From positions 1 to 64,000 of the forward strand of contig JAUVKF010000009.1 of NCBI GenBank assembly GCA_030596395.1: 64,000 bases of DNA. Reading direction: 5' to 3'. This DNA comes from Chlorobiota bacterium (GTDB lineage: Bacteria; Bacteroidota; Bacteroidia; Bacteroidales; F082). The notes below the pieces were generated by a model, which was not told the DNA's origin, did no database searches, and saw nothing but the letters and a program-made list of their open reading frames with translations. Shown piece by piece: positions 6,386-55,579 of the stretch (position 1 is its first letter; the number at the start of each line of letters is the position of its first letter). Made by a program: the position numbers and the translations under genes.

Positions 6386-7390
6386 TTGTATAAAAAACCT
6401 GTCACCATTTCGGATGGCAAATGTAAGTTTTGTTTTAAATTGAAAAAAGGAAAAATACTTTTTATTGACAATACTCACCCATTTCTGCCTGAAGGGTTGG
6501 AAAAAGAGGGATTTCAGTGCGAATATTTCCCCGATTATGGATATGCTGATTATAAAAAAATAATCAATGATTATGTTGGCATTATGATCAGAAGTAAAAT
6601 CAAACTCGATAAGGACATTCTGGAAGATGCAAGGAGTTTAAAGTTTGTAGCCAGGATTGGATCGGGAATGGAAAATATTGATTATTTATTTGCAGAATCG
6701 AAAGGTGTTGTTTGCTTAAATGCACCCGAAGGCAACCGTGATGCAGTTGGCGAACAGGCGGTCGGGATGCTCCTCTCGTTGTTTAATAATTTAAATACAG
6801 CTGACCTCGAAGTGCGAAAAGGAATATGGAAACGCGAGCAAAACAGGGGCATCGAACTAGGTGGAAAAACAGTCGGGATAATTGGCTATGGCAATACGGG
6901 TAATGCTTTTGCAAAAAAACTTAAAGGTTTTGATGTGCAGGTAATCGCCTATGACAAATACAAAACAAATTTTGCTGATGATTTTGTTGAAGAAGTACAG
7001 CTTACCGATATATTCGAAAGATCAGATGTGGTCAGTTTTCATGTTCCGTTAACAGTGGAAACAACTTATATGGCAGATAATCAATTTCTAACCCAATTTA
7101 GCAAGAATATTTACCTGATCAATACTTCACGTGGTAAAGTAGTGAATACTTCAGATCTTGTTCAGAACCTGGAATCGGGCAAAGTGCTGGGGGCCTGTCT
7201 TGATGTTTTAGAATATGAAGGATTTTCTTTCGAAGAATTAGGGTCGTCAAATATGCCGGATACGTTTTCCAGATTGATAAAAATGAAAAATGTGATCTTA
7301 TCACCTCACATTGCCGGATGGACACATGAGTCGAATTACAAAATGGCCCGGACAATTTTTGAGAAAATTCAGAACCTTAAATTACCATAG
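6386..7390 (+). CDS. D-2-hydroxyacid dehydrogenase, phosphoglycerate dehydrogenase-like
   Basis: An NAD-dependent dehydrogenase of the SerA/2-hydroxyacid family. The Rossmann motif GKTVGIIGYGNTGNAFAKKL is clear, with an acidic residue after the second strand (VIAYD) that favours NAD over NADP. INTSRGKVVN holds the catalytic Arg region, LDVLEYE the Glu and LSPHIAGWTHES the catalytic His. There is no ACT or ASB regulatory domain, so it resembles the short SerA form common in Bacteroidota. The start is doubtful. The longest frame begins at TTG 6386 and adds about 18 residues, including CKFC, before the normal family start (KILFIDNTHPFLPE). A TTG at 6440 would give that shorter, more typical protein. 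Serine biosynthesis is the likely role; no serC or serB is nearby. Confidence 0.82.
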   Translation: MYKKPVTISDGKCKFCFKLKKGKILFIDNTHPFLPEGLEKEGFQCEYFPDYGYADYKKIINDYVGIMIRSKIKLDKDILEDARSLKFVARIGSGMENIDYLFAESKGVVCLNAPEGNRDAVGEQAVGMLLSLFNNLNTADLEVRKGIWKREQNRGIELGGKTVGIIGYGNTGNAFAKKLKGFDVQVIAYDKYKTNFADDFVEEVQLTDIFERSDVVSFHVPLTVETTYMADNQFLTQFSKNIYLINTSRGKVVNTSDLVQNLESGKVLGACLDVLEYEGFSFEELGSSNMPDTFSRLIKMKNVILSPHIAGWTHESNYKMARTIFEKIQNLKLP

Positions 7391-31388: not shown

Positions 31389-31467
31389 TTGAATTTATTG
31401 CGATGAAGTAATCAACTTAATTGCAAAAAATATTTTTTCGGAAGCCTGGCAGAGTAAAGGTTTTCTT

Positions 31468-31602
31468 GTGTGTCTTTTTAGTCATCTCATCGTTACCCCG
31501 AGGCCTCGGGATGCCTTGATCTGACAAAAATACATCATAATAAATACTCAAGGCTAGCGCTCGTTTTCAACGAGTGCTTATCCCAACATATAAAAGACAC
31601 AC
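31468..31602. mobile_element. MITE-like element, ~135 bp, with short terminal inverted repeats
   Basis: The left end GTGTGTCTTTTTA (31468-31480) is the inverted copy, with one base extra, of the right end TAAAAGACACAC (31591-31602). It carries the palindrome CCCGAGGCCTCGGG. The left-end sequence up to TCATCGTTA recurs at 49797-49833 and 50651-50683, without an evident right end. No coding capacity. Confidence 0.55.
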
Positions 31603-47119: not shown

Positions 47120-47278
47120 TTATACCCATTTTGTCATCCTGAACAAAGTGCCTTGCTTCGCTGTAGCTTCGCGAAGGCAGAGAAGGATCTTTATATGCTT
47201 GATATGCAGAGTGTAAAGTTTCTTCTCTATTAACTGACGGATCGGAATGACAGTTTTTTAATGTTTTGCAAAGGTCTC
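47120..47278. mobile_element. MITE-like element 2, degraded, in inverse orientation
   Basis: The right end GTTTTGCAAAGGTCTC (47263-47278) is identical to the right end of the element at 55449-55579. ACCCATTTTGTCATCCTGA near the left end (47125-47143) is the reverse complement of sequence found near the right end of that element. The left terminal repeat itself is not recognisable and the element abuts the ggt start. Confidence 0.55.
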
Positions 47279-48956: not shown

Positions 48957-48998
48957 CCCTTTTTTTCATGCAATGTAACGGTAGTTCATTTTTTTCAA

Positions 48999-49328
48999 TC
49001 AGTCTATAAAGGTTTCTTTCATTACTGATTTAACTTCCTTAATTTCAGGTTGGGATAAGCTTCCTATAACTTTAACAATCCGCTGTTTATCAATAGTCCT
49101 AATTTGATCAATTACAATCCAACCAATTTTTCTCTCGTGTTTTACTTCAATTCTGGTTGGATATTTTTTTGACTTAGTTGTCATAGGAGATACAACTATT
49201 GTCCGAAGATATTTATTCATTTCATCAGGAGAAATAATAACGCAAGGTCTGGTTTTCTTTATTTTTATTTCACTTCCAATTGTTGGGTCTAGATTGACAA
49301 GAACTATTTGATATTGGTTTAAATCCAT
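48999..49328 (-). CDS. mazF: MazF-family endoribonuclease toxin
   Basis: A 109-residue toxin of the MazF/PemK fold. It opens with QIVLVNLDPTIGSEIKIKKT, then RPCVIISPDEMN, PMTTKSKKYPTRIE and WIVIDQIRTIDKQRIV, the full set of conserved blocks. MazF toxins cut mRNA at short sequence motifs. The start overlaps the end of the antitoxin gene by 10 bp, the usual antitoxin-first order. The module is AT-rich and lies beside a repeat-bracketed accessory region. Confidence 0.93.
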   Translation of the reverse strand: MDLNQYQIVLVNLDPTIGSEIKIKKTRPCVIISPDEMNKYLRTIVVSPMTTKSKKYPTRIEVKHERKIGWIVIDQIRTIDKQRIVKVIGSLSQPEIKEVKSVMKETFID

Positions 49329-49564
49329 TCCTCTAAGTTTTCATTTTCAAAAACGTCATCGAATAAAAGTTGGTCGTCCTTGTTTTCATTCATATCTTTA
49401 AATGCAGCGTCCCAACCTTTTCTTGGCTCAGCTATAGGTTTTAAAATAATATGCCCTTTCTTAAGGATAATTTCAACCTTGTCTTTAATATTATATTTTT
49501 CAATTAAAGTTTTGCTAAGTCTAAACCCTTTAGAGTTTCCGATTTGTATTATTGATAATTCCAT
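49319..49564 (-). CDS. mazE: MazE-type (AbrB/SpoVT-fold) antitoxin
   Basis: An 81-residue antitoxin. Residues 1-45 form the swapped-hairpin DNA-binding domain (IIQIGNSKGFRLSKTLIEKY; KVEIILKKGHIILKP), and the acidic C-terminal tail (LLFDDVFENENLEEW) would neutralise MazF. It overlaps mazF by 10 bp. As in other such pairs it should repress its own promoter, which would lie just upstream in 49565-49641. Confidence 0.9.
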   Translation of the reverse strand: MELSIIQIGNSKGFRLSKTLIEKYNIKDKVEIILKKGHIILKPIAEPRKGWDAAFKDMNENKDDQLLFDDVFENENLEEWI

Positions 49565-49641
49565 ATTCTTACTTATAAAATGTAATTACAAAGTTAATAC
49601 AATTATTTTGAATGTCATAATGTTTTTTAAAAACGATGGGT

Positions 49642-49740
49642 AACTTGTTAGATGAGTAATAGCCAATTTAAGCGAAAAACAGCTTTGATATCACACAATT
49701 AATAGTTTATCTGATTATAAATAATTGTTAGAGACTATTT
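49642..49740. repeat. Accessory-module direct repeat, copy A
   Basis: About 95 bp, sharing the block CAATTTAAGCGAAAAACAGC, then TTTGATATCAC and TTATCTGATT, with copies B and C. It lies between mazEF and the ParE-type pair. Confidence 0.75.
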
Positions 49741-49754
49741 GGAAATTATCCCTG

Positions 49755-49790
49755 CCCGCCTGATCCCGATAGCTATCGGGATCAGACGGG
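49755..49790. repeat. 36-bp near-perfect palindrome
   Basis: CTGATCCCGATAG and CTATCGGGATCAG (49760-49785) are exact inverse copies with no loop, extended by CCCG/CGGG across one mismatch. The core CCCGAT-GCTATCGGG with one variable base recurs inside the MITE-like element at 38947-38966. Confidence 0.75.
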
Positions 49791-49930
49791 TTTCAGTTTT
49801 CTTATGTGTCTTTTTAGCCGTCACATTGTTATCCACCAGCTGGCGGGTTCTATCCTTATTTCAGGAAGGGCAAAGTGCTGTTGGTGAAAAGAGCAATAGC
49901 ATTCATGAGGTGACGAACCGCCGTCTACGA

Positions 49931-50254
49931 TTATACACTGGGCGTTAATATTTCATTCATTTTTTCAGGATTCTGTCTGCAATCAAATACGCTTGCTATT
50001 ATAATGTAGTTGTCCTGCTTCCAATAAATGATTTTATAATTACCTTCTACCAAATATCTGAATTCGAATTTTCTCCTGAAAAGTAATGGCTCTTTGGGTC
50101 CACTATTAGGATTTTTTTCAAGTTGAATTGTCCTGTCGATAATTTTTTTGACAAGTTTTCGGGCGATTTTTATACTTGCTTTATTTTTATAATAATCAAA
50201 GATTTCTTCTAATTGAGATCTCGCTGTATCAGTCCAGAAAACTCTTAATTCCAT
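49931..50254 (-). CDS. ParE/RelE-superfamily toxin
   Basis: A 107-residue toxin of the ParE/RelE fold: RVFWTDTARSQLEEIFDYYK, QLEKNPNSGPKEPLLFRRKF, and the C-terminal strand EFRYLVEGNYKIIYWKQDNY. The conserved Arg-rich strand and the YKIIY core fit ParE more than RelE, which would mean gyrase as target, but this cannot be settled by eye. The start overlaps the antitoxin gene end by 10 bp. Repeat A lies downstream and repeat B upstream of the pair. Confidence 0.9.
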   Translation of the reverse strand: MELRVFWTDTARSQLEEIFDYYKNKASIKIARKLVKKIIDRTIQLEKNPNSGPKEPLLFRRKFEFRYLVEGNYKIIYWKQDNYIIIASVFDCRQNPEKMNEILTPSV

Positions 50255-50487
50255 GAATCAATTTCATTTTTAAGTTCTCTTGCCGATGTAAGTCTTCCAT
50301 TTTTCGAATCTGACTCTGAATTGTCAATTAAATCATTAAATTCGTTTTGACTAAAAGGTTTTAATTCTCTCTCTACTTTTTTCTTTCTCTCTGATTTTAA
50401 TAGTTTATTTAGTTTGTTAATTAGGTTCTCGTCCTTAAGTCGTAAGAATTCCTGAATGAAATGTAACTTTTTAGTTTGGATGTCCAT
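50245..50487 (-). CDS. Antitoxin of the ParE/RelE-type toxin
   Basis: An 80-residue helical, charged protein (FIQEFLRLKDENLINKLNKL; a Lys-rich centre; acidic NDLIDNSESDSKNG). It has the size, position and 10-bp overlap expected of the antitoxin for the downstream toxin. Its fold is not one of the classic PHD or RHH types by eye, but similar short antitoxins are common with ParE in Bacteroidota. Confidence 0.82.
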   Translation of the reverse strand: MDIQTKKLHFIQEFLRLKDENLINKLNKLLKSERKKKVERELKPFSQNEFNDLIDNSESDSKNGRLTSARELKNEIDSWN

Positions 50488-50549
50488 TTTTTATCTTTCT
50501 ACAAAGTTATAAAATTTAACTATTTTTCTTTTTTTACGCTTTGCATATT

Positions 50550-50648
50550 ACTAGTTACATAAGTAATAACCAAATTTAAGCGAAAAACAGCTTCGATATC
50601 ACACAATTAATAACTTATCTGATTTTAAATGATTGCAAGAGACTGTTT
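50550..50648. repeat. Accessory-module direct repeat, copy B
   Basis: Second copy of the ~95-bp repeat, between the ParE-type pair and the DUF1801 gene. It keeps AAGTAATAACCAAATTTAAG and the block up to GAGACTGTTT. It is followed by a partial copy (50651-50683) of the 31468-type element end. Confidence 0.75.
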
Positions 50649-50707
50649 AGTATAATGTGTCTTTTTAGCCATCTCATCGTTATTTTTTCCACTTCAATTC
50701 TGGTGTA

Positions 50708-51061
50708 TTATACAGCCTGTTTTATAAAGAAATCCACATCTTTGTTCCTAACATCTTCTTTGGATTTAATTTTTAAATGTCTTCGAAATTTTCCACTTCC
50801 TTCAAGTAATTTATTAGGGTCTTTCATTAAAAATCCTTTGATAAATTCGAAAGAAATATGGTTTTTTCTTACAAATAAACCACCAAAATCTTCAGTATCG
50901 AGCGAAAACATAATGCCGCCATACATTATTCTCTCATCAGTTTTTGGATAGGTTTTAAATACAATTTCACGCATTGCATTCAGAGTGTTATATTTCTCAC
51001 TGTCAATCATTATGATTTCATCGAGAAATTTTTGAACTTTTTCATCTTTAGATTTCTTCAT
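50708..51061 (-). CDS. DUF1801 family protein
   Basis: A 117-residue cytoplasmic protein from the ATG at 51061 (MKKSKDEKVQKFLDEIIMI). It matches the DUF1801/YdhG-like fold: AMREIVFKTYPKTDERIMYG, then GIMFSLDTEDFGGLFVRKNH and EGSGKFRRHLKIKSKEDVRN. The family's biochemical function is not established. The frame is open ten codons further upstream, but the chosen start is the usual one. It sits alone between repeat copies B and C, the same arrangement as the neighbouring toxin-antitoxin pair. Confidence 0.85.
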   Translation of the reverse strand: MKKSKDEKVQKFLDEIIMIDSEKYNTLNAMREIVFKTYPKTDERIMYGGIMFSLDTEDFGGLFVRKNHISFEFIKGFLMKDPNKLLEGSGKFRRHLKIKSKEDVRNKDVDFFIKQAV

Positions 51062-51118
51062 AATTATTCCTTTTTGCTCATCATTTTTCACTTGAATATC
51101 AGTTTTTTAATGAATGCC

Positions 51119-51210
51119 AACTTGTTATATAAGTAATAACCAAATTTAAGCGAAAAACAGCTTTGATATCACCACTCGTTAACTTATCTGATTTTAAACA
51201 GTCTCTAAAC
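51119..51210. repeat. Accessory-module direct repeat, copy C
   Basis: Third copy, upstream of the DUF1801 gene. The first two-thirds are nearly identical to B; the end differs (TAAACAGTCTCT, which is the inverse of the AGAGACTGTTTA end of B). Confidence 0.75.
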
Positions 51211-54124: not shown

Positions 54125-54203
54125 CCCCCTCTCTGTGCACAGAGAGGGGGAATGAGGGGGAGAGTCAAAACAAAAAATTGTCCCACTTTCATAAGATGGT
54201 TTT
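54125..54203 (+). repeat. Direct repeat unit 1 with 26-bp perfect palindrome
   Basis: The palindrome CCCCCTCTCTGTG/CACAGAGAGGGGG (54125-54150) is followed by AATGAGGGGGAGAGTCAAAA and, further on, CATAAGATGGTTTT. The same order recurs at 54393-54469. Confidence 0.8.
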
Positions 54204-54392: not shown

Positions 54393-54469
54393 CCCCCTCT
54401 CTGTACAGAGAGGGGGAATGAGGGGGAGAGTCAAAACATAATACCGCCCCATTTTCATAAGATGGTTTT
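54393..54469 (+). repeat. Direct repeat unit 2 with 24-bp perfect palindrome
   Basis: CCCCCTCTCTGT/ACAGAGAGGGGG (54393-54416), then AATGAGGGGGAGAGTCAAAA and CATAAGATGGTTTT, as in unit 1. Its end abuts the start region of the GHMP kinase gene. Confidence 0.8.
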
Positions 54470-55448: not shown

Positions 55449-55579
55449 GAGACCTTTGCAAAACTTCAGAAGATTGTCATTCTGAATGAAATGAAGAATC
55501 CTTACGCTCTGTATATAAAGTACTTAAAGATCCTTCGCTATGCTCGAGGATGACAAAATGGGTGTTTTGCAAAGGTCTC
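55449..55579. mobile_element. MITE-like element 3, 131 bp, with 16-bp perfect terminal inverted repeats
   Basis: GAGACCTTTGCAAAAC (55449-55464) and GTTTTGCAAAGGTCTC (55564-55579) are exact inverses. Inside are TGTCATTCTGAATGAA and AAGATCCTTCGCTATGCTC, shared with element 1 (38909-39049). No target-site duplication is obvious. Non-coding. Confidence 0.75.

Follow-up and report, generated by a model that had tools for sequence, protein, structure and literature searches.

Integron cassettes have complementary 5' and 3' ends, the cassette junction carries an R' box with the consensus GTTRRRY, the R'' box is RYYYAAC, and the attC site folds into an imperfect palindrome whose R and L boxes pair. 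An excerpt of one source (PMC7923331) prints the R'' box as RYYYACC. Integrons with toxin-antitoxin (TA) cassettes and integrase-less arrays (CALIN) are both known (excerpts of PMC9024848, PMC9892861, PMC8618304 and PMC7923331), and according to the excerpted review (PMC8618304) chromosomal integrons tend toward sequence-conserved attC sites and count TA systems among their commonest cassette functions. For Bacteroidota, the excerpted report of IntegronFinder 2.0 names a single species with a complete integron, Salinibacter ruber, its predecessor having found only lone integrases (PMC9024848). Judged by title among the matches listed, the literature on integrons, attC sites or CALIN in Bacteroidetes/Bacteroidota held no array like the one described below; we make no claim that the locus or its repeat is unreported.

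Here we analysed a window (the whole stretch of DNA under study, 64,000 nt) from a 3.4 Mb genome in 113 contigs (94% complete). Tentatively, we read its locus 48999-51205 as a decayed integron-like cassette array that was invaded and partly deleted by MITEs.

Three modules and a threefold repeat

The locus holds three modules with intact frames, mazEF, parDE and a DUF1801 gene, all on the minus strand, and three copies in register (49642-51199) of a ~85-bp repeat, hereafter R (~81-90 bp proper). The features are as follows.

48999-49564, minus strand: mazEF module (PF02452, E 4.6e-28; DNA homologs)
48999-49328, minus strand: MazF/PemK toxin (PF02452)
49319-49564, minus strand: mazEF antitoxin, 81 aa, open frame overlapping the toxin frame
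49638-49644, minus strand: GTTACCC, 5' edge of the putative mazEF cassette and inner edge of R1 (homolog flanks against shuffles)
49642-49730: repeat R1
49731 to ~49850, plus strand: left half of a MITE, hairpin variant, with end GAGACTATTTGG; right half missing, right limit set by eye
49931-50487, minus strand: parDE module (PF05016, E 2.4e-11; DNA homolog L089)
49931-50254, minus strand: ParE toxin (PF05016)
50245-50487, minus strand: parDE antitoxin, 80 aa, open frame overlapping the toxin frame
50549-50638: repeat R2
50639-50692, plus strand: left portion of a MITE, internally deleted and of another variant (from aligned copies)
50708-51058, minus strand: DUF1801 gene, 116 aa (PF08818, E 2.4e-16)
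51119-51199: repeat R3
51196-51205, minus strand: MITE end AAACAGTCTC, in opposite orientation to the ends at R1 and R2

The Pfam matches confirm the gene identities (MazF/PemK, ParE, DUF1801) proposed in an earlier note on this DNA; neither antitoxin matches a Pfam family at E 0.001. The repeat copies are also present where that note had placed them, and a 99-bp repeat query finds only these 3 places in the own genome at E <=0.001 (4.4e-46 for itself, 8.3e-24 and 4.4e-18, well past chance). Its ~95-bp repeat is real but composite: R accounts for ~81-90 bp, and the last ~10 bp of the first two copies as then drawn (49731-49740 and 50639-50648) are a MITE end. The arrangement needs correction, as each of the last two modules had been said to be followed by a copy; instead, on the gene strand, every one of the three modules has one copy of R upstream. 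Gapped identity is 77/90 columns (85.6%; longest exact run 21 bp) between R1 and R2, 69/82 columns (84.1%; 30 bp) between R1 and R3, and 72/82 columns (87.8%; 35 bp) between R2 and R3.

Among 295 genomes sampled from the order (own genome included), matches to MazF, ParE and DUF1801 were found in 94, 100 and 10 genomes, respectively, and the best DNA relatives of all three modules belong to other families. DNA homologs of mazEF at 29 fetched loci are 69-87% identical (the longest covering ~48989-49641), the parDE homolog L089 is 75% identical over 50064-50519, and a DUF1801 homolog from another family's genome (L100) is 91.6% identical over 50682-51075. Homology stops ~30 bp short of R2 for parDE (L089) and 43 bp short of R3 for DUF1801; one mazEF homolog (L114) runs ~8 bp into R1, and the remaining ones stop at or before R1. 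R is absent from every module homolog fetched. As the homology of each module ends at or within 43 bp of R, mazEF, parDE and the DUF1801 gene are separate acquisitions with horizontal relatives of their own, and this agrees with the modular layout noticed earlier, in which unrelated small modules are split by one repeat. All three modules are shared with other genomes as discrete units, with defined ends only for mazEF. The two TA pairs, with their intact frames, probably persist as ordinary TA loci. A close DUF1801 relative in genome G194 (L109) has no repeat array around it.

No gain or loss of a module could be seen in relatives: R has no credible copy there, and in the same-genus genomes that could be read (G001, G002 and G004) conservation does not extend upstream of the chorismate-enzyme gene (51296). 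Out of 12 genes compared, their upstream regions contain only the chorismate-enzyme gene and menD, plus mvk in G004 (menF, menD and mvk are names that we presume for the neighbouring genes). ORF lists were used for two of the regions; the contig of G005 ends at this place, and G003 has no full-length match.

Distribution of the repeat

Out of 197 other genomes searched with R, 7 gave matches of 25-43 bp only, and none held a credible copy. With a query of R2 plus the adjoining MITE, 7 of 172 other genomes matched, 5 via the MITE part and 2 via short pieces of R. With three places in the own genome and no credible copy in relatives, R as a dispersed element was rejected; the earlier view of R as tied to these modules stands in that respect, and it is the attached MITE end that is dispersed. 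The exact core of R had one match in GTDB contigs (a search that may miss entries close to the own genome). It falls within a long reading frame in a Deltaproteobacteria MAG, by eye resembling a histidine kinase; only 23 bp are common with R, and we take the match as chance.

A phage or plasmid origin was rejected as well: the exact core is absent from the viral contigs searched, the whole locus has no match in plasmids, and the stretch 3' of parE has none in plasmids or phages, different queries having been run against different collections. Known RNA families gave no match at E 1 over 46-56 kb of the window.

MITE pieces beside the repeat

On their right, R1 and R2 border on a MITE, i.e. a short, non-coding element in many copies, with inverted ends and target duplication. 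The own genome has it at 26 places, a count that takes in partial copies and the two next to R1 and R2 (from 42 match rows, the rest being a different repeat, second strands and second pieces), and the bordering DNA also matches an element in 5 genomes of the family (G003, G004, G005, G038 and G041). The ends are GAGRCTGTTTGG and its complement, full length is 138-182 bp, and the internal hairpins are exchangeable. Both ends could be paired in 23 elements of 34 loci, and 11 of these 23 have identical 3-bp flanks, all TNA. The MITE part at 50639-50692 joins the DUF1801 module through ~8 bp of microhomology (by eye), and R3 follows R to about 51199, running into the opposite MITE end.

IS5-type ends have been published for the Porphyromonas gingivalis elements MITE464 and BrickBuilt (excerpt of PMC4596501), and similarity of the ends suggests that the MITE beside R may be IS5-like. 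As far as the excerpt describes them, those elements share with it ends starting GAGAC and a short non-coding body; the MITE here differs in its ends (GAGRCTGTTTGG), its body of 138-182 bp, its exchangeable hairpins and the TNA duplication of its identical-flank copies.

Other repeats were seen in passing. A further partial copy of the GAGRCTGTTTGG family lies at 31460-31551 of the window, and a second MITE type, with ends GAGACCTTTGCAAAA, flanks the region (complete at 55449-55579; apparently partial and inverted at 47179-47278). A 77-bp direct repeat (54127-54203 and 54393-54469; 88% identical), with a CCCTCTCTGT...ACAGAGAGGG palindrome, sits near the end of the presumed menD and the start of the next gene. 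Identical pieces of 135-140 bp occur at 1723-1864 of locus L041 and on the own genome's contigs C6, C22, C15, C75 and C73, in two cases at the end of a contig; they are probably the first part of an insertion sequence at which the assembly breaks off.

Cassette edges and the joining point on R

Of the 29 mazEF homologs, 7 have GTTACC within 130 bp upstream, against a mean of 0.56 and a maximum of 4 in 300 shuffled runs, and 5 have GTTACCCAT (shuffles: mean 0.013, maximum 1), beyond which the sequences diverge. Within 60 bp after the mazF stop codon, GGTAA[CT] is found in 7 of the 29 (mean 0.85, maximum 4 in 300 runs). Four homologs carry both edges, and those outside these sets have no GTTACC or GGTAA[CT] edge. 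By eye and with no control, complementary ends were also seen in 4 of 29 parDE homologs: GTTACAC/GTGTAAC in L070, GTTGGCAA/TTGCCAAC in L092 and L094, and GTTAACAAC/GTTGTTAAT in L090.

The copies of R agree to AAGTT (R1 and R3) or TAGT (R2) and then diverge into the modules, all three modules being joined to R within 1-2 bases of one point. On the gene strand the junctions read AACAAG|TTACCC for mazEF, AACAAG|TTGGCA for DUF1801 and, damaged, AACTAG|TAATAT for parDE. The inner edge of R1 coincides with the mazEF edge (GTTACCC) found independently from the homologs. GTT is thus present in R1 (GTTACCC) and R3 (GTTGGCA), neither of which fits the strict GTTRRRY consensus, and absent from R2 (GTAATAT); an R''-type box amounts at most to CTAAC in R1, where the MITE adjoins, and none was seen in R2 or R3. 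The remark in the earlier note that the repeat was not recognised as attC is partly right: no attC-like palindrome was detected in R, but the inner edge of R lies at an integron-type junction motif for mazEF, and R may still derive from attC. Further arrays of this type can be sought with the mazEF edge (GTTACCC ... GGGTAAC) as a tag.

Palindrome and folding tests

R1-R3 fold no better than shuffles, i.e. a folding signal is absent. In an anchored-arm test neither R1 (p 0.61) nor R2 (p 0.84) is significant, nor are the hybrids R1 x R3 (p 0.27; R3 was tested only in this form) and R1 x R2 (p 0.50). Out of seven reference sites chosen by eye, five pass this test (L110, L094, L119, L121 and L123), and L092 and a site on contig C62 of the own genome (see below) fail, so the test can miss attC sites and is not blind to them. 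A local palindrome test gave p 0.09, 0.41 and 0.38 for R1, R2 and R3, and p 0.57, 0.51 and 0.76 for wider regions around them. It was passed at 0.05 by 10 of 57 3' flanks of TA homologs (5 mazF and 5 parE, L118 being dropped for Ns) where ~3 are expected, and several of the 10 are unlike attC. The window's own two TA 3' flanks fail it, as do the C62 site (p 0.13) and all 7 control genes of the window.

A motif after parE, a candidate for a Bacteroidetes attC family, has no other match in the 295 genomes or in viral contigs. Two weak matches to the parE 3' flank (L147 and L148) have no attC-like context. This candidate was dropped, motif and similarity searches having given nothing useful.

Integron machinery and related arrays in the order

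The integron-integrase model TIGR02249 has no match on the window's contig; elsewhere in the own genome it gives one fragment on contig C62 and weak matches on C100. At E 0.001 every one of the 14 control genomes also yields matches, to generic tyrosine recombinases, and a match alone therefore means little. The C62 fragment (6976-7197) is a C-terminal piece of IntI covering 74 of 315 model positions, with 114 bits, below the cut-off. Its identity is 81-84% to the over-cut-off IntIs of G358, G255 and G372 (all from the order), 68% and 86%, in two pieces, to that of G125, and 55% to that of G440. The fragment adjoins a transglutaminase-like gene (PF01841) and the site GCTAAC...GTTAGG, which we take to be attC-like; C62 6976-8125 (L145) thus looks like integron remains, with IntI fragment, transglutaminase-like gene and attC-looking site.

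Across the order, IntI exceeds the TIGR02249 cut-off in 5 of 295 genomes, and matches of any kind at E 1e-25 occur in 109 of 295 (own genome included) as compared to 1 of 14 controls. In many genomes there are recombinases listed as matching the ends of the model (~5-179 and 239-315) and not its middle; the C62 fragment is 44-54% identical to 15 such recombinases. Among the 5 integrase regions fetched, two of which reach just 119 and 212 bp past the gene, attC-like sites were seen by eye only in G440.

Locus L110 (contig C16 of G327, 115-2853) contains four copies of a ~170-bp attC-like, palindromic repeat, with parDE (relative L070) between the first two. It resembles the window in that a homologous parDE (ParE 67% identical) lies between direct repeats spaced ~780-900 bp; unlike R, its repeats are ~170 bp long and palindromic (one copy tested), and the two copies read at their ends begin with TAAC and end with GTTA. 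Genome-specific direct repeats of ~77-160 bp lie near other TA homologs as well (L071, L076, L086, L114, L119 and L140), and some of these may be attC sites.

Weighing the explanations

If the locus is a decayed cassette array, mazEF, parDE and the DUF1801 gene would have been captured as separate cassettes in one orientation, and R1-R3 would be the array's own boundary repeats in attC position, ending at the crossover position. MITEs would then have inserted beside R, and deletions would have brought MITE interiors up against parDE and DUF1801 at the modules' 3' ends. The repeats, the MITE pieces, the horizontal relatives of the modules, the mazEF edge and the integrase fragment elsewhere in the genome are observed, whereas descent of R from attC, an integron integrase as the builder and this order of events are inferred. 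Nothing suggests that such an array would still be mobile. Speaking against it are the lack of a significant palindrome in R, the imperfect fit of R1-R3 to the attC boxes, the lack of an integrase match on the contig, the DUF1801 relative in G194 with no array around it and the microhomology between DUF1801 and the MITE. The last of these, together with the abundance of MITEs (26 places) and the lack of a significant palindrome, fits as well with a segmental duplication, a close rival: an intergenic R plus MITE would have been copied by ordinary recombination, R being no recombination site, and homologous or illegitimate recombination would have brought the modules in next to the copies or into them. 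R1 and R2 do share both R and the adjoining left end of the MITE, at the same position, but they carry different MITE variants, so that one simple duplication is insufficient. Duplication also leaves unexplained why the inner edge of R falls at the mazEF cassette edge and why three modules join within 1-2 bases of one point on R. That common joining point, and the independent cassette edge at R1, favour the cassette array over duplication of R and MITE. Both may apply in part, with cassette capture behind one boundary and duplication behind another.

The remaining readings are all improbable. The MITEs themselves might bound a mobile cassette (49731-51205) that carries parDE and DUF1801 and is moved in trans by an IS5-type transposase, a slim prospect: the inverted ends GAGACTATTTGG and TTAAACAGTCTC pair at 9/12 positions, and 11 of 23 full-length family elements have identical TNA flanks, but the flanks here (TTA and TAA) differ, R is left unexplained, and, with R confined to its three places in the assembly, there is no second copy of the whole there. 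R could instead be a regulatory or promoter region kept by selection, since it lies upstream of all three modules, R2 and R3 have TAAATTTG on the gene strand (presumably like a Bacteroidota -7 box), and variation within R is lowest in the middle (one change in 30 columns, p 0.048). We give this slightly less credence still: a run of 21 without any change does not reach significance (p 0.085), which leaves strong purifying selection on the middle as a marginal case; the TAAATTTG box is altered in R1; and in mazEF and parDE a separate TAACTTTG box precedes the start codon, on the module side of R. Homologs of mazEF, which lack R, widely conserve this box. The least probable is the active array of the earlier note, in which recombination between copies of R would cleanly excise single modules. 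Direct repeats in one orientation around separate modules would suit it, but the claim is not supported: the copies are 84-88% identical and their longest exact runs measure 21-35 bp, the junctions carry remnants of truncated MITEs, the window's contig has no integrase match, and the R searches of 197 and 172 other genomes showed no variant arrangement. No evidence of excision or module exchange was found (one strain).

Comparison with known systems

If the reading as a decayed cassette array is right, the locus would document TA modules behaving as gene cassettes in Bacteroidota, and would show how an array can become hard to recognise through MITE insertion and deletion, with nothing but a direct repeat left. 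A further idea, to which we attach little weight, is that R belongs to an undescribed cassette-capture system of the order, with lineage-specific, weakly palindromic repeats that end at GTT and are perhaps served by IntI-like recombinases. Small TA modules would then circulate through it, each genome having its own repeat, and the IntI-like recombinases would be those that match the integrase model at its two ends and not in between.

The locus is unlike a complete integron in that an integrase gene is absent beside the array (TIGR02249, window's contig), and unlike a sedentary chromosomal integron or CALIN in that its repeat is not detectably palindromic and the second attC box seems to be missing or damaged. 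It is like a sedentary chromosomal integron or CALIN in its small, unrelated modules in one orientation, its TA pairs, its array-specific repeat at each boundary, the mazEF edge at a GTT motif and the integrase remnant elsewhere in the genome.
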